Assembly: GCF_009674685.1 (NCBI RefSeq)
Contig: NZ_WKJI01000003.1
Coordinates: forward strand, 248,001 to 312,000
DNA length: 64,000 bases
Reading direction: 5' to 3'
Origin: Pedobacter puniceum
GTDB lineage: Bacteria > Bacteroidota > Bacteroidia > Sphingobacteriales > Sphingobacteriaceae
This document shows, one piece after another, positions 29,881 to 46,371 of the stretch. The number at the start of each line of letters is the position of its first letter. The stretch's first letter is position 1. The position numbers and the translations under genes are program-made. The notes beneath the pieces are model-generated. The model was not told the origin of the DNA and made no database searches. It was given only the letters and a program-made list of their open reading frames with translations.

Positions 29881-29935
29881 TTGCGCTCGTTTGTAACGAG
29901 TGCTTAATTGGTTTAACGATTAAATCGTTATTTCA
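29881..29935. repeat. REP-like repeat, short copy B
   Basis: The core stem-loop (29881-29905, one change from copy A) and the second palindrome AACGATTAAATCGTT (29915-29929). The second palindrome supplies the last codons and TAA stop (29920-29922) of the transposase. Same orientation as A, with 6 nt between the two; lacks the 38-nt tail. Confidence 0.85.
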
Positions 29936-30501
29936 TAAAAATCACTAAAGCTAGTATCAACTTTTATAACATCTAAAAGACCTTTTTCATTTAAGTAGTT
30001 TTTTGCAGAGCTGTATAAATATTCTTCAGGTAAATCTACAATTTCAGCTTTTACGGGATTGTTGTGTATATAATCTAGTTTTTGAGCTAGGGTATGATGA
30101 TTGAAACATTCAATAGCATGATAGCCATCTTGCCAAACTTTATAATCTTTTATCCTATTATTAAACTTAGCGTGGTAACTAAAGCGGTATAACATCCAAT
30201 CTCTTCTACTTTCATGCTCTGTCTCCATTATCTTGATGATTTCTTTATTAGTGAATTTTTTAAAATCTCTAACAAAGTCTGATAATAATAAAGGCTCTTT
30301 AATAGAAACTAGCAGGTGTAAATGGTTAGTCATTAAGCACCACGCATACAGTTCTAATCCTTTATTTTCTTGTGCGTATTTTAAAGAGTTGATGATGATT
30401 TTTTTATAGACTGGTCTAATAAATATATCTACCCAATCTACAACTGTAAAAGTTATAAAATGGATTAGATCTTGCGTTCTTACACGGTATTGATGCGACA
30501 T
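29920..30501 (-). CDS. REP-associated tyrosine transposase (RAYT, Y1/IS200-like)
   Basis: 193 residues, full length for the family. HUH motif H60-L-H62 in MTNHLHLLV; the probable nucleophile is Y144 in KLDYIHNNPVKAEIV, the conserved helix before NPV. RAYTs are single-strand nucleases that cut and join at REP palindromes. Both flanks carry REP-like copies: B overlaps the 3' end and C lies 59 nt upstream of the start. No ISxx ends are visible, as expected for RAYTs. The frame is intact, so the enzyme is probably functional. Confidence 0.92.
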   Translation of the reverse strand: MSHQYRVRTQDLIHFITFTVVDWVDIFIRPVYKKIIINSLKYAQENKGLELYAWCLMTNHLHLLVSIKEPLLLSDFVRDFKKFTNKEIIKIMETEHESRRDWMLYRFSYHAKFNNRIKDYKVWQDGYHAIECFNHHTLAQKLDYIHNNPVKAEIVDLPEEYLYSSAKNYLNEKGLLDVIKVDTSFSDFYEITI

Positions 30502-31320: not shown

Positions 31321-32379
31321 TTATACGTTTTTAGCTAACCAATCGCCAACTTCGCTGGTTTTGTAAGCTTTATTAGTTCCGGCTAAATCTTCTGTTACTA
31401 CGCCTTCTGCTAAAGATTTATTAACTACGTCTCTAATAGCTGCTGCTTCTGCGTGTAAGCCGAAAGCGTCTTCAAACATCATAGCGGCAGATAAAACGGT
31501 TGCCAATGGGTTTGCAATGTCTTTTCCGGCTGCTTGTGGGTAAGAACCGTGAATAGGCTCGTACAATGAAGTATGTAAGCCTTTAGACGCTGATGGCATT
31601 AAGCCCATAGAACCTGAAATTACAGAGGCCTCATCTGTTAAAATATCTCCAAAAAGGTTTTCGGTAATTAAAACATCGTAAGAGTTTGGCCACTGTACTA
31701 AACGCATAGCTACGGCATCAACAAACTCGTAACTAACGGTTACTTCTGGATAATCTTTTTCCATATCCTGTACGGTTTCTCTCCATAAACGAGAGCTTTC
31801 TAGTACGTTTGCTTTATCCACACAGCATAATTTTTTGCTACGTGTCATGGCTATTTCAAAGCCTAATTTAGCTAAACGCTGAATTTCTGCTCTGGTGTAT
31901 GTACAAGTGTCAAAAGCGGTGTTGCCATCGTCTTTTCTACCTCTTTCACCAAAGTAAATTCCGCCAGTTAGCTCACGTAAAATAATTAAATCTGTACCTT
32001 CTATGCGCTCTCTTTTTAACGGCGAGTTGTCTATTAAAGAAGGGAATGTAAAAGTAGGACGAACGTTTGCAAATAAGCCTAATTTCTGACGCATTTTTAA
32101 TAAACCTTGCTCTGGGCGAACTTTTGCTTTAGGGTCATTATCGTATTTTGGATGGCCAATAGCGCCAAATAAAACAGCATCAGCAGCCATACAAACTTCG
32201 TGTGTGCTATCTGGATAAGGCTCTCCGCACTCATCAATAGCGCAAGCACCTGTTAAAGCAGATGTCCAATTGATTTCGTGGTTAAACTTTGTAGCAACAG
32301 CATTTACTACTTTAACAGCCTGGTCTACAACCTCAGGCCCAATTCCGTCTCCCGCTAAAAGGGCGATATTTAATTTCAT
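31321..32379 (-). CDS. leuB: 3-isopropylmalate dehydrogenase
   Basis: 352 residues. Oxidises and decarboxylates 3-isopropylmalate to 4-methyl-2-oxopentanoate with NAD. Signature elements: LAGDGIGPEV at the N-terminus, LRELTGGIYFGERG, and VYEPIHGS-type SLYEPIHGSYPQAAGK near residue 275. It would also accept erythro-3-methylmalate if the neighbouring cimA-like enzyme makes citramalate. Last gene of the ilv-leu operon, 94 nt after cimA, with a terminator downstream. Confidence 0.96.
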   Translation of the reverse strand: MKLNIALLAGDGIGPEVVDQAVKVVNAVATKFNHEINWTSALTGACAIDECGEPYPDSTHEVCMAADAVLFGAIGHPKYDNDPKAKVRPEQGLLKMRQKLGLFANVRPTFTFPSLIDNSPLKRERIEGTDLIILRELTGGIYFGERGRKDDGNTAFDTCTYTRAEIQRLAKLGFEIAMTRSKKLCCVDKANVLESSRLWRETVQDMEKDYPEVTVSYEFVDAVAMRLVQWPNSYDVLITENLFGDILTDEASVISGSMGLMPSASKGLHTSLYEPIHGSYPQAAGKDIANPLATVLSAAMMFEDAFGLHAEAAAIRDVVNKSLAEGVVTEDLAGTNKAYKTSEVGDWLAKNV

Positions 32380-32402
32380 ATTTTTATTTAGTTTGTTCGT
32401 TT

Positions 32403-32469
32403 CTAGTTTGTTAGTTGGTTAGATTGTTTTATATCCGTTTTCAAGAGTTCTAACAAACTAACAACCTAA
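32403..32469 (-). repeat. Imperfect inverted repeat in the cimA-leuB spacer
   Basis: CTAGTTTGTTAGTTGGTTAG (32403-32422) is nearly complementary to 32450-32469 (about 17 of 20 positions), with a 27-nt loop. Both arms are built from degenerate TTAGTTTG words, like the leuD-leuC spacer. Confidence 0.65.
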
Positions 32470-32473
32470 CCAC

Positions 32474-33991
32474 CTAGATGATATTTAACATTTTTTGTGT
32501 TGCTTTAATGGCACATACGGTTTGGTCTGAGTCTAAACCGCGTGTTTTAAAGCTTTTTTTATCAGTTTCCCAAGTAATAATGGCCTCACAAAGTGCATCA
32601 GAATCACTTCCTGGCGCAATTCTTACAGCATAATCTATCAATTTTGGTAAGTGCAATTTCTTTTTAGCATATACCTTATTTAAAGCATTCATAAAGGCAT
32701 CAAACTGTCCATCGCCTTGTGCATTTTCTTCAAAATGCTCTCCTTCTATTGAAACTGAAATGGTTGCAGACGGACGTAAACCTTTAGCATGTGTTAGAAC
32801 GTATGATTGTACAGTAACTTTTTCTTCATACAGCTTACTATCTAGAACATCAGAAATGATATAAGGAAGGTCTTCTTTAGTAACCGTTTCCTTTTTATCT
32901 CCAAGTTCTATAACGCGTTGGGTAACCTTTTTTAAATCTTCATCATTAAGTTTTAAACCTAATTCTTGAAGGTTTTTTTCAATGTTGGCTTTGCCCGATG
33001 TTTTACCTAAAGCGTAAGTACGTTTTCTGCCAAATCTTTCTGGTAATAAATCGTTAAAATAAAGATTGTTTTTATTGTCGCCATCAGCATGGATACCAGC
33101 GGTTTGGGTAAATACATTGTCGCCAACAATAGGTTTATTTGCAGGTATTCTGATGCCCGAAAATGTTTCTACCAGTTTGCTCACTTTAAAAATAGAAGAT
33201 TCTTTTAATGAGATTTTTACCTCTGGCAGAAAATCGTTAATAACAGCTACAGCACTTGCCATTGGTGCATTTCCGGCTCTTTCACCCATACCATTTACGG
33301 TTAAATGTAAGCCATCTATACCTGCTTTTACAGCTTCCAGAACGTTGGCGGTACTTAAATCGTAATCATTATGAGCATGAAAATCAAAATGAACTTTAGG
33401 GTATTTTGATTTTAATTCGGCAATATATTCATACGTTTCTGAAGGCGTTAAAACACCTAAAGTATCTGGTAGAAGCACCCTTTTTACAGATTGCTGGCCA
33501 AGAAAGTCTAAAAACTGGAAAACATAGTCTTTAGAATTACGCATGCCATTACTCCAATCTTCTAAATAAACATTGGTTTCTATTTGGTTTTGAGTAGCCA
33601 AAGCTATAACTGCAGCAATTTCTTCAAAATGTTGCTCAGCAGTTTTTTTAAGTTGATGTGTTAAATGATTTAAAGAACCTTTGGTAAGTAAATTCTGAAC
33701 TTTAACACCAGCATTTAGCATCCAATTGATAGATACCCCATTATCAACAAAAGAAAGTACTTCTATACGATTGGTGTAACCGTTTTGGCTTGCCCAATCC
33801 ATGATGGTTTTTACAGCTTGAAATTCTCCATCTGAAACACGGGCAGAAGCAATTTCAACTCTGTCTACATGTAGTTCCTCCAGTAATAGCTGGGCAATTG
33901 TAAGCTTTTCAGAGGCGGAAAATGAAACTCCCGAGGTTTGTTCACCATCACGGAGTGTTGTATCCATTATTTCTATTTTCCTTTTTACCAT
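32474..33991 (-). CDS. cimA: Citramalate synthase homologue (LeuA-like, Leptospira CimA type)
   Basis: 505 residues: TIM barrel (about 1-320), linker, and C-terminal allosteric LeuA dimer domain (about 390-500). Catalytic motif DTTLRDGEQ at 10-18 with R14 and D15, metal motif FHAHNDYD, and GERAGN. Compared with LeuA in the same operon, it reads VDRVEIASARVS, NLLTKGSL and NVYLEDWSNG, the segments that in Leptospira citramalate synthase line a pyruvate-specific pocket (Leu, Leu and Tyr). Likely converts pyruvate plus acetyl-CoA to citramalate, entering isoleucine synthesis through LeuCDB. A second isopropylmalate synthase is the alternative. Confidence 0.8.
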   Translation of the reverse strand: MVKRKIEIMDTTLRDGEQTSGVSFSASEKLTIAQLLLEELHVDRVEIASARVSDGEFQAVKTIMDWASQNGYTNRIEVLSFVDNGVSINWMLNAGVKVQNLLTKGSLNHLTHQLKKTAEQHFEEIAAVIALATQNQIETNVYLEDWSNGMRNSKDYVFQFLDFLGQQSVKRVLLPDTLGVLTPSETYEYIAELKSKYPKVHFDFHAHNDYDLSTANVLEAVKAGIDGLHLTVNGMGERAGNAPMASAVAVINDFLPEVKISLKESSIFKVSKLVETFSGIRIPANKPIVGDNVFTQTAGIHADGDNKNNLYFNDLLPERFGRKRTYALGKTSGKANIEKNLQELGLKLNDEDLKKVTQRVIELGDKKETVTKEDLPYIISDVLDSKLYEEKVTVQSYVLTHAKGLRPSATISVSIEGEHFEENAQGDGQFDAFMNALNKVYAKKKLHLPKLIDYAVRIAPGSDSDALCEAIITWETDKKSFKTRGLDSDQTVCAIKATQKMLNII

Positions 33992-34038
33992 GTAAATGTT
34001 ATTTGTTGATGATTGTTATTTCTATAAATCTATTTTAG

Positions 34039-34074
34039 AAAACACACCTTCTATTTTTTTAGAAGATGTGTTTT
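34039..34074 (-). repeat. Strong stem-loop in the leuD-cimA spacer
   Basis: 15-bp stem with one mismatch (34039-34053 with 34060-34074), 6-nt loop. On the minus strand it ends in TTTT, so it could act as a partial terminator or an mRNA-processing or stability element between leuD and cimA. Confidence 0.75.
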
Positions 34075-34102
34075 AAATAAGTTTATTAAAAACAGTCTGT
34101 TG

Positions 34103-34699
34103 TTATAATGGAAGTTGCGTAGCAAATTCCTGAATTTCTGATTTTATGTTTTGTAGATAATCAATATCATCAAAACCGTTCATCATATTTTCTTTTTTGT
34201 ATGAGCTAATATCGAAGCTTTCTTGCTCTCCGGTTGTAGTTAAAGTAATGGTTTGTGCCGGAAGATTAATTTCTAATTCTGTTTTAGGGTTTGCCGCAAT
34301 AGCTTTAAATATTTTATCTAAAAACTCTGGACTAACCTGTACCGGTAAAACACCAATATTTAAACAGTTATTTTTAAAAATATCTGCAAAGAAGCTAGAA
34401 ACAACCGCTCTAAAGCCATAATCGTAAACAGCCCAAGCAGCATGCTCTCTTGATGAACCTGAACCAAAGTTTTTACCACCTACTAAAATTTTACCGCTGT
34501 AAGTTGGGTTATTAAGTACAAAATCTGGTTTAGGAGTATTATCTGGATTATATCTCCAATCTCTAAATAGGTTATCACCAAAGCCTACACGTTCTGTAGC
34601 TTTTAAGAAACGAGCTGGTATAATTTGGTCAGTATCAACATTCTCTATAGAAAGTGGAACTGCACTGCTTTTTAATATGTTAAATTTATCGTATGCCAT
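34103..34699 (-). CDS. leuD: 3-isopropylmalate dehydratase small subunit
   Basis: 198 residues, normal size. With LeuC isomerises 2- to 3-isopropylmalate (and citramalate to methylmalate in the pyruvate route). Motifs: NVDTDQIIPARFL near the N-terminus, and GGKNFGSGSSREHAAWA, the substrate-binding swivelling loop, near residues 75-91. Located 81 nt downstream of leuC, in the same operon. Confidence 0.96.
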   Translation of the reverse strand: MAYDKFNILKSSAVPLSIENVDTDQIIPARFLKATERVGFGDNLFRDWRYNPDNTPKPDFVLNNPTYSGKILVGGKNFGSGSSREHAAWAVYDYGFRAVVSSFFADIFKNNCLNIGVLPVQVSPEFLDKIFKAIAANPKTELEINLPAQTITLTTTGEQESFDISSYKKENMMNGFDDIDYLQNIKSEIQEFATQLPL

Positions 34700-34710
34700 T
34701 TTATTTGTTT

Positions 34711-34792
34711 TTAGTTTATTGGTTTGTTAGTTTTTAGTTTGTTAGATTAAACTTAGCGAACCAACTAACAACCTAATCATCTAACCAACTAA
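34711..34792 (-). repeat. Imperfect inverted repeat in the leuC-leuD spacer
   Basis: Left arm of TTAGTTT/TTGGTTTG words (34711-34748) faces a right arm of CCAACTAAC/ACCTAAT words (about 34759-34792) that overlaps the leuC stop. Same word family as the cimA-leuB spacer. Confidence 0.5.
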
Positions 34793-36190
34793 TTCTTCAA
34801 TTAATTCTCTAGGGTCTGTTACTTTACCTGTAACCGCTGCCGCAGCTGCTACTAGTGGGCTTGCAAGCATGGTTCTAGAACCTGGTCCTTGACGGCCTTC
34901 AAAGTTTCTGTTTGATGTACTTACTGCATATTTACCTGCAGGAATTTTATCATCATTCATAGCTAAACAAGCAGAACAACCTGGTTGGCGTAGTGTAAAA
35001 CCAGCCTCAGTTAAAATATCTAAAATACCTTCTTCTTTTATTTGAGACTCAACAATATGAGAGCCTGGTACTAACCAAACGGTTACATTTTCTGCTTTTT
35101 TTCTTCCTTTTACAACTGATGCAAAAGCTCTGAAATCTTCTATTCTACCATTAGTACAGCTTCCTACGAAAACATAATCAACAGGTTTGCCTATCATAGA
35201 ATCGCCTTCATTGAAACCCATATAGTTTAAAGATTTTTCATAAGTTTCTACACCACCTTCTACTTGCTCAGCATCAGGGATTTGGTTAGAAATACCAATA
35301 CCCATACCAGGGTTGGTACCATAAGTAATCATAGGTTCAATTTCAGAAGCATTATAAGCTAACTCTTTATCAAATACTGCATCAGCATCTGTTTTAAGGG
35401 TTTTCCAATATTCCATTGCTTTATCCCAAGCTGCACCTTTTGGTGTAAACTCACGACCTTGGATATAATTGAAAGTAGTTTCATCTGGAGCTATCATACC
35501 ACCACGAGCACCCATTTCTATACTTAGGTTACATACGGTCATACGGCCTTCCATACTCATTTTCTCGAAAACTTCACCAGCATACTCCACAAAATAACCA
35601 GTGGCGCCAGAGGTAGTTAATTTAGAGATGATGAATAAAGCAACGTCTTTAGGCGTAACACCTTTGCTTAAAGTACCGTTGATGGTGATTCTCATTTTCT
35701 TTGGTTTTGGTTGCATGATACATTGTGTAGAAAGTACCATTTCTACTTCAGATGTACCTATACCAAAAGCGATAGCACCAAAAGCACCATGTGTGGAAGT
35801 ATGCGAGTCGCCACAAACAATAGTTGCACCTGGTTGAGTAATACCGTACTCTGGTCCAACTACGTGAACAATACCATTTTTTTGATGACCTAAACCCCAG
35901 TGAGAAATACCATATTCTTTAGAGTTAGCCTCTAAAGCTTTCAGCTGATTAGCTGATAATGGATCTGCAACTGGTAAATGTTGGTTAATAGTAGGCGTGT
36001 TATGATCTGCCGTAGCAAAAGTACGTTCAGGATATAAAACTTTAATACCTCTGGTTTTTAATCCTAAGAAAGCTACCGGGCTAGTTACTTCATGGATTAA
36101 ATGACGATCGATAAATAAAACATCCGGACCGCCTTCTATCTTGCGAACCACATGTTTATCCCACACTTTGTCAAACAATGTCTTGCTCAT
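34781..36190 (-). CDS. leuC: 3-isopropylmalate dehydratase large subunit
   Basis: 469 residues, aconitase family. The three [4Fe-4S] cysteines are in [10 protein letters not shown] (about residue 345) and [13 protein letters not shown] (about 405-408). Substrate motif [22 protein letters not shown] near 127-148. Partner of leuD directly downstream. Separated from leuA by a 70-nt spacer that contains a stem-loop. Confidence 0.97.
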
Positions 36191-36224
36191 CTTATTATAA
36201 TTTTATTTGTTTTCTAATCTTAAA

Positions 36225-36249
36225 GCCTTATCAATAATCTCGATAAGGC
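36225..36249 (-). repeat. Stem-loop in the leuA-leuC spacer
   Basis: GCCTTATC (36225-36232) pairs with GATAAGGC (36242-36249), 9-nt loop. On the minus strand the stem is followed only by TTTAAG, so it is a weak terminator at best. Confidence 0.65.
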
Positions 36250-36260
36250 AAATTTAAATT

Positions 36261-37766
36261 TTATATAAATTTATTTATAGCATCTAAATAAGCATTTGCA
36301 GATGCTTTTACGATATCTGAACTGAAACCGTAACCTGCATAATATTTATCGCCATATTTTACCCTCATATTTACTTTACTAATATCATGGCTTCCACCAT
36401 GTATCGCATCTATATGGAACTCTTTTAAAGTAACTTCTTTTTTAATGATGCTATCCATAGCTTTAATGGTCGCGTCTACCGGACCATTTCCTGATGCTAC
36501 AGCTTCATATACTTTTTCATGAATTTCTAGCTTTACCATAGCGGTAGGAATTAATGGATCACCACACATCACCTGTAATAATTTTATGGTGATACCATCT
36601 TTATAGTTACGTTCTGTACCATCGCCCATTAAAAGTAATAAGTCGTCATCTTTGATTTCTTTTTTACTATCAGCAAGTACTAAAAAACGCTCGTAAACTT
36701 CATCTAAGTTTATTTTTTCTATAACATATCCTAAACGCTCTAAATGGTGTTTAAGCGCATGACGACCACTTCTTGCGGTTAAGATAATCTCTGATTGGTC
36801 TATACCCACATCTTCCGGATTGATGATTTCATAATTCTCTCTGAATTTTAAAACACCATCTTGATGGATACCCGAACTATGTGCAAATGCATTTTTACCA
36901 ACAATAGCTTTGTTTGGCTGTACTGGCATACGCATCATACGACTAACCATTCCGCTTAGCTCATAGAATTTTTTGCTATTGATATTGGTATAATAACCTA
37001 ATTGATGGGTTTTTAATATCATAGCAACTTCTTCTAAAGAAGTGTTACCGGCTCTTTCTCCAATACCATTTATAGTACATTCTACTTGGCGAGCTCCGTT
37101 TTGGATACCAGCAATAGAGTTTGCTGTTGCCAAACCTAAATCATTATGGCAGTGTACAGAAATTATAGCTTGATCTATATTTTTAACATTCTCTTTCAGG
37201 AAACGAATTTTAGAGCCATACTGGTCTGGTAAGCAATAGCCATTAGTATCTGGTATATTAACTACCGTAGCACCGGCTGCAATTACAGCCTCTATCATTT
37301 GTGCAAGAAAAACTACATCTGCTCTTCCAGCATCTTCTGCATAAAACTCAATATCTTCTACAAACTTTTTGGCATATTTTACTGCTGCAACACCACGCTC
37401 CAGAATATCTTCACGGGTACTGTTAAATTTGTATTTGATATGCATGTCTGATGCGCCAATTCCTGTATGTATTCTTGGTCTTTTGGCATGTTTTAAAGAT
37501 TCTACAGCAGCATCAATATCCTTTGTATTGGCTCTTGTTAAAGCACAAATAATAGGATCTTTTACAGCTTTAGATAGCTCAACAACACTTTGGAAATCTC
37601 CTGGGCTTGAAATTGGGAAACCAGCCTCAATAACATCAACACCTAAGATTTCTAATTCTTTTGCAATCTCTATCTTTTCTGATGTTGTTAATTGACAACC
37701 AGGTACCTGTTCACCGTCTCTTAAAGTAGTGTCGAAAATGTAAATTCTATTCGGGTCGTGTAACAT
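36261..37766 (-). CDS. leuA: 2-isopropylmalate synthase
   Basis: 501 residues. Condenses acetyl-CoA with 2-oxoisovalerate, the first step of leucine synthesis. [16 protein letters not shown] at the N-terminus, metal-binding VHCHNDLG near residue 202, [13 protein letters not shown] near 235, and a C-terminal LeuA dimer domain for leucine feedback. It keeps the EAGFP and HTGIG segments typical of true LeuA, unlike the cimA-type paralogue 2.3 kb downstream. Confidence 0.96.
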
Positions 37767-37782
37767 ATTCTTTTGTTAGCTT

Positions 37783-37809
37783 CATTTACGCTTGTTTAAG
37801 GGGTAAATG
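37783..37809 (-). repeat. Small stem-loop in the ABC ATPase-leuA spacer
   Basis: CATTTAC (37783-37789) pairs with GTAAATG (37803-37809), 13-nt loop. A weak structure, listed because the neighbouring spacers also hold stem-loops. Confidence 0.45.
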
Positions 37810-37829
37810 AGTTCATTTTTTTATTCTTT

Positions 37830-39344
37830 TTATAATGATGGCTCAAAGTTTAATGCATAATCTTTAAGCTGTTTATATGCTTTATCTGTTTTTAAATCTT
37901 CTATCAGGATAACTTCTCCGTTCTCCAAAACAATCTTTTTTTCTAAGCAGTTGGGTAATTGAGATTCAAAATGACCAACGTAAATTAAAGTCATACCATT
38001 ACTGCAAAGCTCATCTACCAATTGGTTAAAATGTTTGGTTTGTTGTTTATCTAAACCTTGGCAAGGCTCATCCAGAATAAGTAATTCTGGGTTTTTAATG
38101 ATGGTTCTAGCCAGTAAAACCAATCTTTGTGTACCTAAAGGCAAGGTGTTTAAAAGTCTGTTTTTTTCTTCGGTTAAACCAAAATATTCAACTAACTCAT
38201 CTACTAAAATACTTTTAGAATAAGGGAGCTGTCTAAATAAACCTACCGAGTCATAAAGGCCAGAAGCAATACTTTCCCATACCGTAGCTGATGCATCAAA
38301 ATACCAATGAAATTCTGGAGAAATTAAGCCAATATGTTGTTTAATATCCCAGATACTTTCTCCGCTACCTCTTTTATTACCAAATAAATACAAGGTATTG
38401 GCATAAGATTGTGGATGATCTCCGTTTATTAAGCTTAATAAAGTTGATTTACCAGAACCATTATGTCCTTGTAGCAGCCATTTTTCACCAGCTTTAACTT
38501 CCCAGTTGATATTTTTTAGCACTTGTTTTTCTCCATAACTAATTTGGATGTTCTCCATTTTAGCTATTTGCTGCGAGCTATAAACAGGCGATGTTCTTAA
38601 AAAAGCTGGTATTGTTTTATTTTCCCTTAGAGGGATGAATTGCTGTAAATCAGTTTTTGTATTTACGGCTACCAATTTTTTGTTTACAATGGTAGCAAAA
38701 CGATTGATAGACGATGGTAAATCATCATCATTACTGATTAAGATTAACGTTACCCCTGCCGATGCAGTTTCATCTAAAAGAAGATTTAGGTTTTTTCTCG
38801 ATTTTAAATCTAAACCTGTATAAGGTTGGTCTATAATAAGCACTTGAGGTTTTAACCACAAAGCTTTAACCAGTTGTAATTTTTTATGCTCGCCACTAGA
38901 AAGCTCTATAAGTTGCGAGTTTTGTAAAGATGTAAAGTCTAATCTATTTAAGATAGGTTCAACATCAGCAATATTTAAGTGATATTCTTTAGCGTAATAA
39001 GCTAGTTCTGCTTTTACAGTTAAAGTTTCTTTAGCCTGTTGGCTTGTATAGCGTTGCTGATAGTAAAAATTAGCAACACCTTCTAAATTTTTAAATTGAT
39101 ACCAGCTTTCTACAAACAAAACTTTTGCGGGTAATTTACTTGTATCGTTAAAAGTGATTTTGATGTTTCCAGATGCAGGTAATAAGCCAGCTATAACTTT
39201 GCCTAAGGACGTTTTTCCGTTGCCACTATTCCCGCCTAATAACCAGTTTTCTCCAGAAAGGATAGTCCAATTCAAATCTGATAACACCAGCATTTGCTGA
39301 TATTGCAAGTTTAAATTGTTGATATGGACGACTGGTTGTGACAT
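37830..39344 (-). CDS. Tandem ABC ATPase, ModF/PhrA-like
   Basis: 504 residues, two nucleotide-binding domains and no membrane segments. NBD1: Walker A GGNSGNGKTS, signature LSSGEHKKLQLV, Walker B LIIDQPYTGLD, in which the catalytic Glu is replaced by Gln. NBD2: Walker A GHNGSGKST, a degenerate signature LPLGTQRLVLL, Walker B LLILDEPCQGLD with Glu intact. The layout and degenerate signatures match the ModF (PhrA) family of soluble ABC proteins, whose function is uncertain. It lies between ilvC and leuA with short spacers, so it is cotranscribed with branched-chain amino acid genes; why is unclear. Confidence 0.88.
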   Translation of the reverse strand: MSQPVVHINNLNLQYQQMLVLSDLNWTILSGENWLLGGNSGNGKTSLGKVIAGLLPASGNIKITFNDTSKLPAKVLFVESWYQFKNLEGVANFYYQQRYTSQQAKETLTVKAELAYYAKEYHLNIADVEPILNRLDFTSLQNSQLIELSSGEHKKLQLVKALWLKPQVLIIDQPYTGLDLKSRKNLNLLLDETASAGVTLILISNDDDLPSSINRFATIVNKKLVAVNTKTDLQQFIPLRENKTIPAFLRTSPVYSSQQIAKMENIQISYGEKQVLKNINWEVKAGEKWLLQGHNGSGKSTLLSLINGDHPQSYANTLYLFGNKRGSGESIWDIKQHIGLISPEFHWYFDASATVWESIASGLYDSVGLFRQLPYSKSILVDELVEYFGLTEEKNRLLNTLPLGTQRLVLLARTIIKNPELLILDEPCQGLDKQQTKHFNQLVDELCSNGMTLIYVGHFESQLPNCLEKKIVLENGEVILIEDLKTDKAYKQLKDYALNFEPSL

Positions 39345-39358
39345 AAATTTAACCCTTA

Positions 39359-39388
39359 AAATCTCCTCTCCATTGAGAGAGGAGATTT
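39359..39388 (-). repeat. Strong stem-loop in the ilvC-ABC ATPase spacer
   Basis: Perfect 12-bp stem AAATCTCCTCTC (39359-39370) with GAGAGGAGATTT (39377-39388), 6-nt loop, 25 nt after the ilvC stop and 15 nt before the ATPase start. Not followed by a T tract, so a processing, stability or translation-control element is more likely than a terminator. Confidence 0.8.
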
Positions 39389-39412
39389 GGGTATTTTCCT
39401 TATATTATTTAC

Positions 39413-40894
39413 TTAAGCAGTTTTAATAGCTTTCATAGCTGTCATTGCTTTACGCAATTTTACACCTACAACTTCTACTTGGTGGCTACGTAAAATTTCA
39501 TTGATTTCTACTAATCTTCTGTTATCTACAGAACCATCTTTTCCTTCGTTAAAGTTTTTACCTACTAAGTCTGTATCAACTTTCTTCATGAAATCGGCTA
39601 ATAAAGGCTTACAAGCTTGGTCAAATAAATAGCAACCGTACTCAGCAGTATCAGAAATTACACGGTTCATTTCGAATAATTTTTTACGAGCAATGGTATT
39701 TGCAATCAGCGGAGTTTCGTGTAAAGACTCATAATAAGCAGATTCCGGTTTAATACCAGCCTCAACCATAGTTTCAAAAGCCAATTCAACACCTGCTCTA
39801 ACAAAAGCAACCATTAATAAATAGTTATCAAAGTATTCTTGCTCGCCAATTTTAACATCTCCGGCAGGAGTTTTTTCAAAGGCAGTTTCACCTGTCTCTG
39901 CTCTCCAAGCTAATAAGTTTTTGTCTCCATTTGCCCAATCTTCCATCATGATACGGCTAAACTCGCCACTCATAATATCATCTTGGTGCTTTTGGAATAA
40001 AGGACGCATAATGTCTTTTAACTCTTCAGAAACTTCAAAAGCTTTAATTTTAGCAACATTACTTAAACGATCCATCATACCAGAAACGCCACCATGTTTT
40101 AAAGCTTCAGTGATAACTTCAACACCATATTGTACCAATTTAGAAGCATAACCAGCATCAATACCTTTTTCAATCATTTTATCAAAAGAAAGAATAGAAC
40201 CAGTTTGTAACAAACCACAAAGTATAGTTTGCTCGCCCATTAAATCTGATTTTACTTCAGCAACAAAAGATGATTTTAATACACCAGCTCTGTGGCCGCC
40301 AGTACCTACACAATAAGCTTTTGCTTGTGCTAAACCTTTTCCTTCCGGATCATTTTCTGGGTGCACTGCGATTAAAGTAGGTACTCCAAAACCTCTTACA
40401 TATTCTGCTCTTACCTCGCTACCAGGGCATTTAGGTGCCACCATAATAACGGTAATATCTTTACGGATTTGCATGCCTTCTTCAACAATGTTAAAACCGT
40501 GAGAATATAATAGGGTAGAACCTTGTTTCATTAAAGGCATAATAGCATTAACAACAGCAGTATGTTGCTTGTCTGGTGTAAGGTTAACTACTACATCTGC
40601 AGAAGGAATTAATTCTTCGTAAGTACCAACTTTAAAGTTGTTTTCTGTAGCATTTTTCCATGAATCACGTTTACCTTCAATTGCTTCTTTACGTAAGGTA
40701 TAGCTTACATCTAAGCCGCTATCTCTTAAATTTAAACCTTGGTTTAAGCCTTGTGCACCGCAACCTACAACTACAATCTTTTTCCCTTTTAAAGCATTTA
40801 CTCCATCTGCAAACTCTGCATTATCCATGAATTCACAAACGCCTAATTGGTTTAGTTTTTCTCTAAGGGGTAAAGTATTAAAATAATTTGCCAT
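39413..40894 (-). CDS. ilvC: Ketol-acid reductoisomerase, class II
   Basis: 493 residues, the long (class II) form with a duplicated C-terminal knotted domain, as in E. coli and plants. Isomerises and reduces acetolactate and acetohydroxybutyrate with NADPH. Rossmann motif [20 protein letters not shown] near residues 40-59, and the catalytic acidic residues lie in the [12 protein letters not shown] segment. A 141-nt spacer with an inverted repeat separates it from ilvN. Confidence 0.96.
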
Positions 40895-40910
40895 TGTTTT
40901 TTGTTTTTAT

Positions 40911-41029
40911 GTCCGAAGTTGGAAGTCTGTAGACTAGAGCCAAATTCGTTCTTTATATATGTTTGTTTATTGTTTCTATTTTTTTAATTAATTCTTATGA
41001 CTTTAGTCTTCTGACCTCGGTCTGCCGAC
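40911..41029 (-). repeat. Imperfect inverted repeat in the ilvN-ilvC spacer
   Basis: Left arm 40911-40939 (GTCCGAAGTTGGAAGTCTGT...) is roughly complementary to 40998-41029, about 20 of 29 positions. Both arms are degenerate repeats of GTCnGAAG-like words. No open reading frame. Confidence 0.55.
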
Positions 41030-41035
41030 GTTAAA

Positions 41036-41638
41036 CTACATCGTAAAGACCTTATCGCCATTGTTCAGGTATTCATTCTCTGCAGCTGGCTCTCCTGGTT
41101 CGCGATTTTCAAATTGTTTAAGTTTGGTATGGAAACCATCGCTAGCTTTTATAATAGCTACACGGGCACTTCTTACAAACTCTATTAAACCATATTGTTG
41201 CAATACAACCACTAAAGCATCAGTTTCTTCTCTATGTCCAGTAGTTTCAAAAACGGTGTAATCTTTACGGATAACCACGGCTCTTGCACCATATTCACGT
41301 AATAAACGCTCTACACTAACATGCTCTGCAATAATTTCTGTAGGTACTTTGTAAAGTGCAAGCTCTTGCCAGATAACATCTTCATTGGTATTGTAGTATA
41401 CTTTTAATACTTCAACTTGCTTTTCTAACTGACGAGCAACTTTTCTTACCACCTCTTCTGTTTCGTTTATCACGATGTTAAAACGGTGAATACTTTCTAC
41501 CTCTGAAGGGGATGTATTTAAGCTTTCAATATTCAGTTTTCTTCTACTAAATATAATTGCTATCCTGCTCAGTAAACCAACCTGGTTTTCGGTATAAACA
41601 GTGATGTTAAATTCCTTCTTTTCTAATTTTGATTCCAT
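41036..41638 (-). CDS. ilvN: Acetolactate synthase small (regulatory) subunit
   Basis: 200 residues: N-terminal ACT domain (about 10-85; YTENQVGLLSRIAIIFSRRKLNIESL) that binds valine for feedback inhibition, and a C-terminal ALS_ss_C domain. The length matches long IlvN/IlvH-type subunits. 19 nt downstream of ilvB. Confidence 0.95.
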   Translation of the reverse strand: MESKLEKKEFNITVYTENQVGLLSRIAIIFSRRKLNIESLNTSPSEVESIHRFNIVINETEEVVRKVARQLEKQVEVLKVYYNTNEDVIWQELALYKVPTEIIAEHVSVERLLREYGARAVVIRKDYTVFETTGHREETDALVVVLQQYGLIEFVRSARVAIIKASDGFHTKLKQFENREPGEPAAENEYLNNGDKVFTM

Positions 41639-41657
41639 GATTTTTTAAATTGAAGGT

Positions 41658-43403
41658 TTACTTAAGCCTGATTTCACTAACGCTACAGCCTTGTGGAACC
41701 ATAGGGAATACATTATTTTCTTTAGTTACCATAACTTCTAAAAGGTATGAGCCCTTATGATCAAGCATAGTTTTTAAAGCGTCTTTTAGTTCTGTTCTTT
41801 CAGATATTTTTTTACCGTCTATGTAATAGCTTTTTGCAAGAGCTACAAAATCCGGACTGGTAATATCAACAAAAGAATATCTTCTATCGTGGAAAAGCTC
41901 TTGCCATTGTCTTACCATCCCTAAGAACTGATTATTTAAAATCATGATTTTTACATCAATACCACTTTGCATAATAGTACCTAGTTCTTGTAAAGTCATT
42001 TGGAAACCACCGTCACCAATAACAGCTACTACTGTTTTATTGGGTGCGCCAAACTTAGCTCCAATAGCTGCGGGTAAAGCAAAGCCCATGGTACCTAAGC
42101 CACCGCTAGTGATATTACTTCTGGTATGGTTAAATTTAGCATAACGGCAAGCTACCATTTGGTGCTGACCAACATCTGTTACAATAACAGCATCTCCGTT
42201 AGTTAATTGGTTAAGCTGATTGATGACTTCGCCCATGGTTAACTCTCCAGATTGAGGGTTAATTTCAGCATCAATACACTGAGCAAATTCTTCTTTAGAA
42301 TAATTATTAAACTTAGCTAACCATTCTTCGTGTTTGTTTTCTTTAACTAAGACAGTTAATAAAGGTAAAGTTTCTTTGCAATCTCCCCATACCGGAACAT
42401 GAGCTTTCACATTCTTATCAATCTCGGCAGGGTCTATATCTAAATGAATAACCTTAGCTTGTTTAGCATATTTGTCTAAACGGCCGGTAACACGGTCATC
42501 AAAGCGCATCCCAATCGCAATTAAAACATCGCACTCATTGGTTAAAACATTTGGGCCGTAATTACCATGCATACCCAACATACCTACGTTTAGAGGGTGA
42601 TCTGTAGGTATAGCACCAGCTCCTAAAATTGTCCAAGCAGCAGGAATACCTGTTTTCTCAACAAAAGCTTTAAACTCTTGTTCTGCGTTACCTAATAGAA
42701 CACCTTGTCCAAATAAAACAAAAGGTCTTTTAGCATCATTGATTAAAGCTGCGGCTTGTTCTATATAATTATTTCTAATAATAGGAGTTGGACGATAACT
42801 TCTTATATGGTCGCATTTTTGGTAACCTTTATAAGCTGCCAATTGTAGTTGAGCATTTTTAGTAATATCAATAAGCACTGGTCCTGGTCTGCCTGTTTTA
42901 GCAATATGGAAAGCCTTGGCTAACACTTCAGCAATTTCAGATGCATCAGTTACTTGGTAATTCCATTTAGTAACAGGTGTTGTGATATTAATAACATCAG
43001 TTTCTTGGAAAGCATCAGTACCTAAAAGATGTGCAAATACTTGTCCTGTGATGCACACCATTGGAGTACTATCAATTTGAGCATCGGCTAAACCTGTAAT
43101 TAAGTTGGTAGCACCTGGTCCGCTAGTGGCAAACACAACACCTACTTTCCCTGATGTACGGGCATAACCTTGAGCAGCATGTGTTGCACCTTGCTCATGC
43201 CTAACTAGAATATGTTTTAATTGATCTTGATAATCATATAAAGCATCGTAAATAGGCATAATCGCTCCACCAGGATATCCAAAAATGGTATCAACACCTT
43301 CGGCAATTAAACCGTTTAATAAAATTTCTGAGCCTTTAAGCTGTTCCACAGTGGTTGCTGTCTCTTCTTCAGAACTCATCAGTAACGCATCCTTCTGTTG
43401 CAT
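41658..43403 (-). CDS. ilvB: Acetolactate synthase large (catalytic) subunit
   Basis: 581 residues, ThDP-dependent. Condenses two pyruvates, or pyruvate with 2-oxobutanoate. E of the ThDP activation site in [14 protein letters not shown] and [15 protein letters not shown], and the ThDP-Mg motif [22 protein letters not shown] near residue 445. The ATG at 43403 lies 35 nt inside ilvD and follows an A-rich stretch; a second ATG at 43379 would cut the overlap to 11 nt. Either start implies coupling to ilvD. Confidence 0.95.
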
Positions 43404-45048
43404 TTTTTACAAGTTTAAAATATTTATACAATACCCCGCTTTTTACCGGAGGCTCTGGTTGTGTCCATTTTGATTTTCTTGCAGCTAATTCTTCATCAGA
43501 CAGCATTACATTAATGGTATTTTTAGTAGCATCAATCTCTATAATGTCATCATCATTAATTAAAGCGATATTACCTCCTTCAAATGCTTCAGGTACAATA
43601 TGGCCTACTACAAAACCATGTGTACCTCCAGAAAATCTACCATCAGTAATTAATGCTACTGAAGAACCTAAGCCTGCGCCAAAAATGGCAGAAGTAGGTT
43701 TTAACATTTCAGGCATACCTGGTCCGCCTTTTGGACCTACATAACGAATTACCACTACATCTCCTGCCTTTACTTTTCCTGAAGAAATACCATCAATAAG
43801 TGCAGATTCACCATTGAAAACTCTTGCTGGTCCAGAGAAACGTTCACCTTCTTTACCTGATATTTTAGCAACACTGCCTTGAGTTGCAATATTGCCATAT
43901 AGCATTTGTAAGTGGCCTGTAGTTTTGATAGGATTTTCTATAGGGAAAATAACTTTTTGAGCATCAAAATCAAGGTCTTTAGCTTCTGCAACGTTCTCAG
44001 CAACAGTTTTTCCTGTAACAGTTAAACAATCACCATGTATCAAACCTTTCTTTAAAAGATATTTCATAACAGCAGGTGTTCCACCTAACTCATGAACATC
44101 TTCCATCATATATTTTCCGCTAGGTTTTAAATCTGCAATTACTGGTACGCTATCGCTGATGTCTTGGAAATCTTTCATGCTTAACTCTATACCTACAGAT
44201 CTTGCCATAGCAATCATATGTAAAACAGCGTTGGTAGAGCCACCCATCACCATAATAACAACCATAGCGTTATGGAAAGCTTTACGAGTCATGATATCAC
44301 GCGGTTTGATATCTTTCTCCATTAAAATTCTGATGAATTTACCAGCTTCTAAACATTCATCTTTTTTCTCTTGGCTTAAAGCCGGATTAGATGAACTGTA
44401 AGGTAAACTCATACCTAAAGCTTCAATAGCAGAAGACATGGTATTAGCAGTATACATACCACCACAAGCACCAGCACCTGGGCAAGAATGTTCTATAATA
44501 CCTTGATAATCTTCTTCGCTAAGGTTACCAGCAATTTTTTGCCCTAAAGCCTCAAACGCCGATACAATATTTAAAGATTGTCCTTTATAATTTCCAGAGT
44601 GTATAGTACCACCATACACCATAATAGATGGTCTGTTTAATCTTCCCATTGCAATGATTGCGCCTGGCATATTTTTATCACAACCAGGTAAAGCTATTAA
44701 AGCATCATAATAATGGCCACCGCAAACAGTTTCTATAGAATCTGCAATCACATCTCTAGAAACCAAAGAAAAACGCATCCCATCAGTACCATTAGTAATA
44801 CCATCGCTAATACCAATAGTATGGAATTTTAAACCTACAAGATTATTATTCCAGACGCCTTTTTTTACAATATCTGCTAAATCATTAAGGTGCATGTTAC
44901 AAGTGTTACCATCATAACCCATGCTGGCAATACCTACTTGTGCTTTTGCTAAATCTTCTCTTGTTAAGCCAATTCCATAAAGCATTGCTTGTGAGGCAGG
45001 CTGTGTCTCATCTTGCGTAATAGTCTTACTATACTTGTTTAATTCCAT
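43369..45048 (-). CDS. ilvD: Dihydroxy-acid dehydratase
   Basis: 559 residues. Dehydrates 2,3-dihydroxy-3-methylbutanoate and -pentanoate to the 2-oxo acids. Fe-S ligands in GCDKNMPG (about residue 121) and [16 protein letters not shown] (about 190). Its start overlaps the ilvE stop by one base (TAATG), indicating translational coupling, and its end overlaps ilvB. Confidence 0.97.
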
Positions 45049-45926
45049 TATATTATTACTTCGAAACTTAATTTATCTAATACTAAATTTTTATAGGCTC
45101 TTTGTATGGTTGCGCCAAGCGAGTCTTTAAAAGGTGTTTTAAAAGGAACATCGTCTAAAGACGCAATACCAACAACTTCTATAGCTGTACTGCATAAAAA
45201 TGCGCTATTGGCATTTTTTAATTCTTCAACAGAAATAGATTTTTCTATAACTTCTATATCTAATTGCTTGGCAATTTTAATGATGGTGGCTCTAGTAATA
45301 CCTGGTAAAATATAGGCTGAGATTTCTGGAGTATATAATTTACCGTTTTTCTCGATAAAGATATTTGCACCAGGTGCTTCTGCAATATATCCTCTAGCAT
45401 CTAGCTGTATAGCATCATCATATCCGTTTTGTGCTGCGTCTGTGGTTGCTAAAATAGAGTTGATATAATTACCTGTAAGTTTTGCGTCTACTGGTACTGA
45501 TTTAGGATTTGGTCTTTCAAACCTAGAAATACAAGTATTTAATGATTTGTTGGCGTCATAATAATCCCAATGCCAAGCCATAATCGTAATCTCTGACTGC
45601 TTATTCACTTTTAAATCCATGCCTGTTCCGCATGTGACAAGAGGTCTTAAATAAGCGTTCTTTAACCTGTTTTTATGTAAAACTTTGTATGAAACTTCTA
45701 TCAATTCTTCTAAATCCCACTGAAAAGGAATATTTACTTTTTCGCAAGATCGTTGAAGACGCTCAAAATGTTCACGAGCTTTAAAAAGCTTTACGCCATT
45801 ATTAGTTTGATAAGATCTAATACCCTCAAAAGCTCCAAATCCATAATGAACGGTTTGGCTGAAAATATCTATACCTGCATGTTCTGCCTGGATAAATTCT
45901 CCATTTTGGTATATAATTGTTTTCAT
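45048..45926 (-). CDS. ilvE: Branched-chain amino acid aminotransferase (class IV)
   Basis: 292 residues, PLP fold type IV. Performs the last amination for Ile, Leu and Val. The N-terminal segment [13 protein letters not shown], the PLP lysine in [10 protein letters not shown] (about residue 155) and EAPGANIF(I) near 190 are characteristic. First structural gene of the ilv-leu operon, 71 nt downstream of the leader peptide stop and 24 nt beyond the attenuator hairpin. Confidence 0.95.
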
Positions 45927-45950
45927 TTTACTGTTGTGGGTTTAAATGAT

Positions 45951-45978
45951 AAAAAAAAAGCCTTCTTTATTGGAAGGC
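45951..45978 (-). terminator. Attenuator terminator in the ilv-leu leader
   Basis: On the minus strand GCCTTC (45978-45973) is not the first arm alone: the hairpin is GCCTTC-7 nt-GAAGGC (45978-45960) followed by nine T (45959-45951). Its 5' arm is shared with an upstream antiterminator arm at 46009-46016, so formation is conditional. It lies between the leader peptide and ilvE. Confidence 0.85.
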
Positions 45979-46016
45979 ATTTTTAATTTTTATGTAGCTA
46001 ATTAAAACATGCCTTC
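45960..46016 (-). promoter_or_regulatory. Antiterminator/terminator switch of the ilv-leu attenuator
   Basis: On the minus strand GAAGGCAT (46016-46009) is exactly complementary to ATGCCTTC (45980-45973), and pairing continues through TTTTAATT/AATTAAAA, giving a stem of about 16 bp with one bulge. The second strand of this stem is also the first strand of the terminator, so the two are exclusive. The first strand overlaps leader codons 21-25 just before the stop, where a terminating ribosome would hide it. Confidence 0.82.
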
Positions 46017-46078
46017 GACTGCATACCTAGTAAAATAGGTAAGAAAATAATGACTGTTAGAATAGCTGTTAAAATCAT
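45998..46078 (-). CDS. ilv-leu operon leader peptide (attenuator)
   Basis: 26 codons, ATG at 46078 and TAG at 45998-46000. 11 of 26 residues are Ile (5), Leu (5) or Val (1), clustered at I2-L3, I6-L7, V9-I10-I11, L13 and I15-L16-L17; the tail is polar (Q20-S-K). It lies directly before an antiterminator/terminator pair and 71 nt before ilvE. When charged Ile, Leu or Val tRNA runs short, the ribosome should stall at residues 2-17, leaving the antiterminator arm free; otherwise it proceeds to the stop and the terminator forms. Short codon-biased leaders of this design are well known in other phyla; the assignment here is inference from sequence. Confidence 0.85.
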   Translation of the reverse strand: MILTAILTVIIFLPILLGMQSKACFN

Positions 46079-46371
46079 ATTTATACTTTGCTTTTAATCA
46101 ATTTTAATCTTCTCAAGGTAAGGCATGTAATATTTAATGTCAAGAGTAAATCATGAAAAAGGTTAAAAAAAATATTATTTCATAAAACATGTTCAAACAG
46201 AATAATATTTGCTCTTTAAACATCAAACCGTTATAAATTTCATAATTTTTGAACCAAAAATGAAAATGGTATTTAGTATAAAACAATCGAATACTATGCA
46301 AGCATTGTATTTTAAGTACTAAATCTTCCTGAAATGTCGGTTAGGCTATAAAAATTTAAAATTTTGGTCAA
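46079..46371. other. Intergenic region upstream of the ilv-leu leader
   Basis: Holds the operon promoter (46113-46143), a CATGCCTT word (about 46118-46127) complementary to the attenuator arm, and about 230 nt of AT-rich sequence without ORF, repeat or further promoter match up to the atpC terminator. Confidence 0.5.
46113..46143 (-). promoter_or_regulatory. Probable promoter of the ilv-leu operon
   Basis: On the minus strand TTG (46143-46141), 20 nt, TACCTTGA (46120-46113), one or two changes from TAnnTTTG. The leader ATG would be about 28-30 nt downstream of the start of transcription. Confidence 0.5.

Follow-up and report, generated by a model that had tools for sequence, protein, structure and literature searches.

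In E. coli and Salmonella, the attenuators of the ilvGMEDA, ilvBN and leu operons combine an ORF for the operon's own amino acids, a terminator, an exclusive antiterminator and a switch set by the position of the ribosome (PMC1183508), and the locus described here has these parts in common with them, the ribosome switch as a proposed one. The Corynebacterium ilvBNC operon, with its uORF and ilvB-II motif, likewise shares with our locus an Ile/Leu/Val-rich uORF and a terminator plus antiterminator ahead of ilv (PMC10272879). Within the Bacteroidota, strong clues for leader-peptide attenuation were described upstream of amino-acid operons of Flavobacterium psychrophilum with transcriptome support, and structured elements before pheA and hisG were mentioned (PMC9723704). 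Short ORFs reminiscent of leader peptides were also noted in Bacteroides thetaiotaomicron, with ilv absent from the text concerned (PMC7366714).

We analyzed a stretch of 64,000 nt from Pedobacter puniceum, hereafter the window, in which an element upstream of ilvE, judging from its sequence, very probably controls the ilv-leu operon by ribosome-mediated attenuation of transcription. The locus has codons for its own amino acids, an intrinsic terminator before ilvE, an exclusive antiterminator and, under the ribosome footprint that we assumed, control codons suitably placed relative to the antiterminator strand. Reading the minus strand from 46160 downward, a TTG box, a TACCTTG box, the ORF, a spacer, a hairpin, nine T residues and ilvE follow in this order:

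46114 to 46143, minus strand: predicted promoter, TTG box at 46143-46141 and TACCTTG box at 46120-46114 (sequence and pattern search)
45998 to 46078, minus strand: leader peptide ORF of 26 codons, MILTAILTVIIFLPILLGMQSKACFN and stop (sequence and alignment of relatives)
46028 to 46036, minus strand: likely decisive control codons ATT-TTA-CTA (Ile15 Leu16 Leu17), proposed from geometry
46000 to 46016, minus strand: antiterminator 5′ strand, core GAAGGCAT at 46016-46009 and extension at 46007-46000 (fold; covariation at one pair)
45973 to 45988, minus strand: antiterminator 3′ strand, whose end at 45978-45973 doubles as the terminator 5′ arm (fold)
45960 to 45978, minus strand: terminator hairpin, GCCTTC at 45978-45973 and GAAGGC at 45965-45960 (sequence and 14 relatives)
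45951 to 45959, minus strand: nine-T tract of the intrinsic terminator (sequence)
45048 to 45926, minus strand: ilvE, the first gene under the proposed control, ATG at 45926
31321 to 45048, minus strand: remaining cluster genes, ilvD, ilvB, ilvN, ilvC, ABC ATPase, leuA, leuC, leuD, leuA/cimA-like and leuB

The first-pass annotation had proposed attenuation at this site, and this reading is supported, with the regulation itself read from sequence. The 26-codon ORF with 11 Ile/Leu/Val residues in MILTAILTVIIFLPILLGMQSKACFN was reproduced to the base, with the ATG at 46078 and the TAG ending at 45998 (stop codon 46000-45998), and the coordinates given for ATGCCTTC (45980-45973), the GCCTTC/GAAGGC terminator and the nine T residues before ilvE were confirmed. 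The antiterminator arm GAAGGCAT does lie at 46016-46009 but within the last codons of the ORF, not after it as had been described, and the pairing drawn with eight base pairs has 16, in which 46016-46009 and 46007-46000 pair with 45988-45973. The competing stems are mutually exclusive because the antiterminator uses the terminator 5′ arm. In fold calculations with a footprint assumed to extend 12 nt beyond the first nucleotide of the codon in the A site, placing the ribosomal A site on codons 15 to 17 gave the antiterminator of 16 pairs with one bulged base (-14.3 kcal/mol), and placing the ribosome on the stop codon left the terminator alone (-7.1 kcal/mol). The minimum-energy structure without a ribosome holds the terminator and a TACCTA/TAGGTA hairpin, a possible counterpart of the 1:2 pause/protector hairpin with which trp-type attenuators pause polymerase and leave the terminator free in the absence of translation.

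In the proposed mechanism, transcription would start near 46109, and a ribosome would trail RNA polymerase through the 26-codon leader. If charged Ile-, Leu- or Val-tRNA were short, the ribosome would wait on the Ile/Leu/Val codons, the last of which are at 46036-46028, and the RNA from 46016 would be free to pair with 45988-45973 once the latter is made. This pairing would use up the terminator 5′ arm, and the polymerase would continue into ilvE. With plentiful amino acids, the ribosome would stand at the stop codon 46000-45998 and cover the antiterminator strand, the terminator at 45978-45960 would form, and transcription would end in the T tract.

The predicted promoter boxes would place the transcription start near 46109, upstream of the ORF, because such boxes sit at -12 to -5 relative to the start (PMC9723704). 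Of 19 Pedobacter-type loci, 16 have a TTG-N15..22-TAnnTT pattern a short distance before the leader, as do 31 of 70 leaders overall, both being raw counts without a chance control and the latter excluding locus L031. The box in the window (46143-46114) and in the Pedobacter relatives reads TAnnTTG, one base less than the usual TAnnTTTG, and resembles the SM5 class of PMC9723704. The word CATGCCTT occupies 46127-46120 in the spacer between the TTG and TACCTTG boxes and has one base in common with the latter. It had been put forward as a second strand complementary to the terminator arm, with the caveat that it may lie inside the promoter; its position between the predicted boxes bears out the caveat, and we rejected the role of a competing RNA strand on the same evidence. 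Since the box pair flanking it recurs in the Pedobacter-type loci counted above, CATGCCTT is probably part of the promoter rather than an RNA element.

Downstream, 11 co-directional genes extend from 45926 to 31321 over 14.6 kb, in agreement with the 11-gene, 14-kb cluster described previously, and from their arrangement on one strand the ilv-leu cluster is a putative single operon. Hairpins are located at 39388-39359, between ilvC and the ABC ATPase gene, and at 34074-34039, between leuD and the leuA/cimA-like gene (the latter seen by eye); they are possible partial terminators or RNA ends inside the operon. The gene at 37830-39344 within the cluster encodes a two-domain ABC ATPase, for which the closest NCBIfam model, ModF, scores below its cut-off, and a REP-associated tyrosine transposase gene lies past the cluster end at 29920-30501. 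On the other side of the leader are atpD (48250-46742) and a short ORF that we take to be atpC and that has a separate hairpin and T tract behind it, near 46402-46374.

We scanned the upstream regions of ilvE in 104 loci retrieved with ilvE as the query, 24 from relatives of the window's genome and the best 80 of a longer list from GTDB species genomes. The scanner accepted an ATG-initiated ORF 10-60 codons long in which Ile/Leu/Val codons numbered six or more and made up no less than 30%, followed 5-60 nt past the stop by a hairpin with a T-rich tail. Such a unit was present in 70 of the 104 loci and in one of 1030 dinucleotide-shuffled upstream regions; thus, the unit is not a product of chance. 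The 104 loci include the duplicate pairs L009/L031 and L016/L039, two loci with hardly any sequence upstream of ilvE (L084 and L089, both without a match) and six low-identity records named for other groups or simply 'bacterium' (L103, L105-L108 and L110, none a match), and one match (L079) and one miss (L055) are metagenome bins named for other phyla. According to the record titles, the matches come from Pedobacter, Chitinophagaceae, Cytophagales including Chryseolinea, Hymenobacter and Pontibacter, and, in Flavobacteriia, from Flavobacterium, Myroides, Chryseobacterium and Tenacibaculum. Under stricter rules, the unit was found in 82 of 123 ilvE loci and in none of 1024 shuffles. To this set, 23 loci were added after 395 genomes of the class had been drawn; just 46 of these genomes carry such an ilvE (E below 1e-60), and upstream regions were taken from the best 30 of the 46. 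The count omits L151, L158 and L166 (repeats), L153, L156, L159 and L163 (incomplete), L031 and L039, as well as L084 and L089 (upstream sequence too short). The spread described here applies to genomes that have this ilvE and is not a figure for Bacteroidota as a whole.

Among the ilvE loci scanned, no match carries a Bacteroidales name. The unit was not found at five Sphingobacterium-named loci (L047, L049, L052, L053 and L109), nor at L048 and L050, which are near them and have ilvE. Nor was it found in the small-genome members of the window's GTDB genus (L012, L016, L017 and L019), which have kept ilvE; by eye, the region upstream of ilvE in these four contains a different short ORF starting with MF and CAAATCATAAATC-like repeats. 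A SAM riboswitch lies about 500 bases upstream of ilvE on the opposite strand in L067 (904-1009).

The check suggested in the first-pass annotation came out positive: close relatives retain the ORF together with its Ile/Leu/Val codons and the competing stems, and the same design of ORF and stems recurs in further families whose arm sequences differ. Inside the ORF, all 14 aligned relatives have only indels whose length is a multiple of three, which is often not so past the stop codon. Strong conservation among the 14 aligned sequences of the window's genus is confined to the start codon, the arms and the terminator. The peptide sequence itself appears to be loosely held, because non-synonymous differences outnumber synonymous ones in close pairs: 44, including 10 interchanges among Ile, Leu and Val, vs 26 in ten pairs, two of the original twelve having been omitted for unequal lengths. 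An SD-like word precedes 2 of the 70 leaders. Bacteroidota make little use of Shine-Dalgarno sequences.

The arms of the terminator differ by lineage: GAAGGC in the closest relatives, GGCGCT in other Pedobacter, GGAGG in Chitinophagaceae, CGGGGC in Cytophagales and varied sequences in Flavobacteriia. Nevertheless, the leader tail matches the terminator arm of its own locus, with a mean score of 18.3 vs 11.8 for non-cognate combinations, a difference reached in none of 20,000 permutations across 69 loci, and the first 30 nt of the same ORFs scored 3.6 as a control. L031 (same contig as L009) and L039 (same as L016; no match) were left out of this set and of that used for geometry. Arms shared among relatives raise the non-cognate score and bias against this result, and the antiterminator score used by the scanner for ranking introduces a mild selection bias in favor of both the pairing and the geometry tests.

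In the alignment of 14 sequences from the window's genus, pairing is seen in 93.8% of the antiterminator cells, and sliding the partner strand lowers the pairing to 35-50%. Columns 72 and 106 form A-U in seven sequences, G-C in six and neither in one. The covariation score of this alignment was equalled in 2 of 500 shuffles; by the two measures least prone to false alarm, the number of double-changed pairs was reached by 349 of 500 shuffles and that of further pair types by 500 of 500, neither being above the shuffles for these 14 relatives. In some rows, the A-U/G-C change adds to the terminator stem as well. The terminator is paired in 100% of cells in the 14 relatives and is invariant except for one G-U.

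Folding of the 69 loci (without L031) predicted the terminator in the ribosome-free structure of 62, including the window's. With a stalled ribosome, the minimum-energy fold retained the terminator in 53 of the 69, the window's locus not being among them, and in all 69 the terminator 5′ arm was at least half paired upstream before the 3′ arm was made. As the stalled-ribosome fold keeps the terminator in those 53 loci, antitermination in most relatives would have to be kinetic; the window's own element is clear-cut by predicted energy too.

The position of the Ile/Leu/Val codons relative to the antiterminator arm follows the scale of a ribosome. Their share is 0.74-0.97 at codons 13 to 5 upstream of the arm (0.78-0.97 at codons 5 to 7) and then 0.25, 0.16, 0.14 and 0.05 at codons 4, 3, 2 and 1, respectively. 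This edge, 12-13 nt before the arm, equals the assumed reach of a stalled ribosome. Ile/Leu/Val codons make up 802 of 1361 codons at which a stall leaves the arm free vs 84 of 495 elsewhere. With the assumed footprint, a ribosome at the stop codon would cover 5 nt or more of the arm in 68 of 69 loci and all of it in 48. Because each arm was located where ungapped complementarity was highest, its position in any one locus is uncertain. Codons lying on the G-rich arm can hardly encode Ile, but codons 4 to 2 are outside the arm.

Other amino-acid genes are preceded by comparable units. The pheA gene of the window's genome has a Phe/Tyr leader, MKFNATYYFGYFYYSNKSRA, and a terminator upstream (L133, contig C1 near 76860-77010), and a Phe/Tyr leader was found before pheA in 18 of 19 loci, a raw count without a shuffle control in which L142 has no antiterminator by the measure used. 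A leader with a His run and a terminator precedes hisG in 3 of 18 loci (L111, L123 and L127, from three other lineages; also without a shuffle control), and such a leader was absent before hisG from the ten genomes of the window's genus among these 18 loci. L129, a match below the cut-off, was left out of this survey. The same rule is thus followed with another amino acid at pheA and hisG, which an incidental ORF would not do.

Two strict Ile/Val units in series were found at 11 of the 123 ilvE loci (L043, L059, L080, L087, L088, L095, L099, L149, L161, L164 and L171), several of which are closely related; Tenacibaculum and Chryseobacterium are among the lineages with two such units. The leaders of these units scored on average 18.1 with their own terminator vs 10.5, and the second unit of L043 does not favor its own by this measure. 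Looser cases are L091, L093 and L051, the last from Myroides with possibly three units and an intervening run of N. The loose listing also included false units formed by the end of the upstream gene and its terminator, and only the strict list was counted; we take the gene behind the false Pedobacter units to be atpC.

These results bear on explanations other than attenuation. The hairpin could be a fixed intrinsic terminator behind an incidental ORF, giving constant read-through without sensing. Its status as the best conserved element, with every cell paired, and its presence in the ribosome-free fold of 62 of 69 loci fit this explanation. The leaders, however, carry Ile/Leu/Val at ilvE, Phe/Tyr at pheA and, in three lineages, His runs at hisG, which together with the cognate antiterminator pairing and the sharp codon edge makes a fixed terminator highly improbable. 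Control might instead be independent of the ribosome, with the RNA binding a ligand, a tRNA as in a T-box, or a protein, and the ORF being secondary, given that riboswitches and T-boxes also act through a terminator/antiterminator pair. However, no Rfam family reached the gathering score at this position, the sub-threshold matches are assorted unrelated families of which none is a T-box, the 14 relatives strongly conserve only the start codon, the arms and the terminator, and the arm sequences vary between lineages; we consider ribosome-independent control no likelier than a fixed terminator. In these searches, no family was found for the leader element at gathering or permissive thresholds. 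Leu_leader, Thr_leader and Phe_leader stayed below gathering, the best in the window being Phe_leader with 26.6 bits vs 55, and the T-box model had no match in the window at gathering and none up to E 10 within 45900-46200.

The ORF might also serve mainly to make a small hydrophobic protein that is conserved, or a leader that works in trans, as the peptide is hydrophobic and conserved in frame and a trans role has been reported for a trp leader peptide (PMC7298713). What is kept, however, is the Ile/Leu/Val content and the position of these codons relative to the arm, and much less the sequence, in which non-synonymous differences are common, and this explanation seems less probable still. 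Attenuation by a translating ribosome is the reading that we retain.

The leaders also differ from the downstream genes in codon choice. Val is encoded by GTC in 89 of 226 cases in the leaders vs 105 of 1096 in ilvE of the same loci, about four times as frequently, and the GTC share exceeds that of the locus's own ilvE in 55 of 66 Val-containing leaders (L031 left out). In Pedobacter-type leaders, GTC accounts for 19 of 33 Val codons vs 8 of 439 in 14 genes of the window. We also observed that GTCATTATT encodes 31 of the 55 Val-Ile-Ile stretches in the leader ORFs of the 69 loci. In E. coli, codon bias in leaders has been explained by selective charging of isoacceptors (PMC1183508).

The Leu share is 0.41 in 23 leu-linked loci vs 0.11 in 35 unlinked ones (Mann-Whitney p 2e-8, kinship ignored), a comparison covering 58 of the 69 loci. 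Linkage was read off the positions by eye, and a shared contig was unproven in the case of named genomes. No difference between linked and unlinked was found within the Cytophagales-like loci, and we dropped Leu codons as a sign of leu control, because the effect is inseparable from lineage.

Lopatovskaya et al. may have listed Bacteroidetes cases in 2010. Our full-text literature search returned one earlier statement of the mechanism for amino-acid operons of the phylum (PMC9723704). The mechanism has therefore been suggested for one flavobacterium, and the window element would add an ilv-leu case. The spread over several Bacteroidota groups, the Phe/Tyr leader before pheA and the GTC preference are new, and the like units in series in relatives are a probable new variant. 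If the reading is correct, a translating ribosome would run close behind RNA polymerase in Bacteroidota, although the leaders start without SD-like words, and the ilv-leu operon of Pedobacter and other Bacteroidota would gain a specific candidate regulator without a matching Rfam family. Serial like attenuators and the GTC preference would also be natural tests of the selective tRNA charging theory outside E. coli. It may be, with about equal chances of being right or wrong, that leader-peptide attenuation is a main and old form of amino-acid control in Bacteroidota, with rewired stems, serial Ile/Val units and a GTC/ATT code tuned to the isoacceptor that is first uncharged.

Compared with the E. 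coli and Salmonella attenuators (PMC1183508), the element belongs to a different phylum, does not reach the Rfam Leu_leader or Thr_leader models, has an SD-like word in only 2 of 70 leaders and carries the antiterminator strand inside its last codons. The Corynebacterium ilvBNC system differs in being actinobacterial, in its uORF of usually 15-17 codons and in having ilvB as the first gene (PMC10272879). F. psychrophilum is of the same phylum, and the mechanism proposed there is the same as for the window element; the main text of that paper contains 0 occurrences of ilv, and its section on attenuation is without codon geometry, pairing or units in series (PMC9723704). In Salmonella mgtCBR, a single leader RNA contains two leader ORFs and their attenuators, and the two units sense different signals, ATP and proline (PMC3641672), whereas both units of the series described here are Ile/Val-rich.
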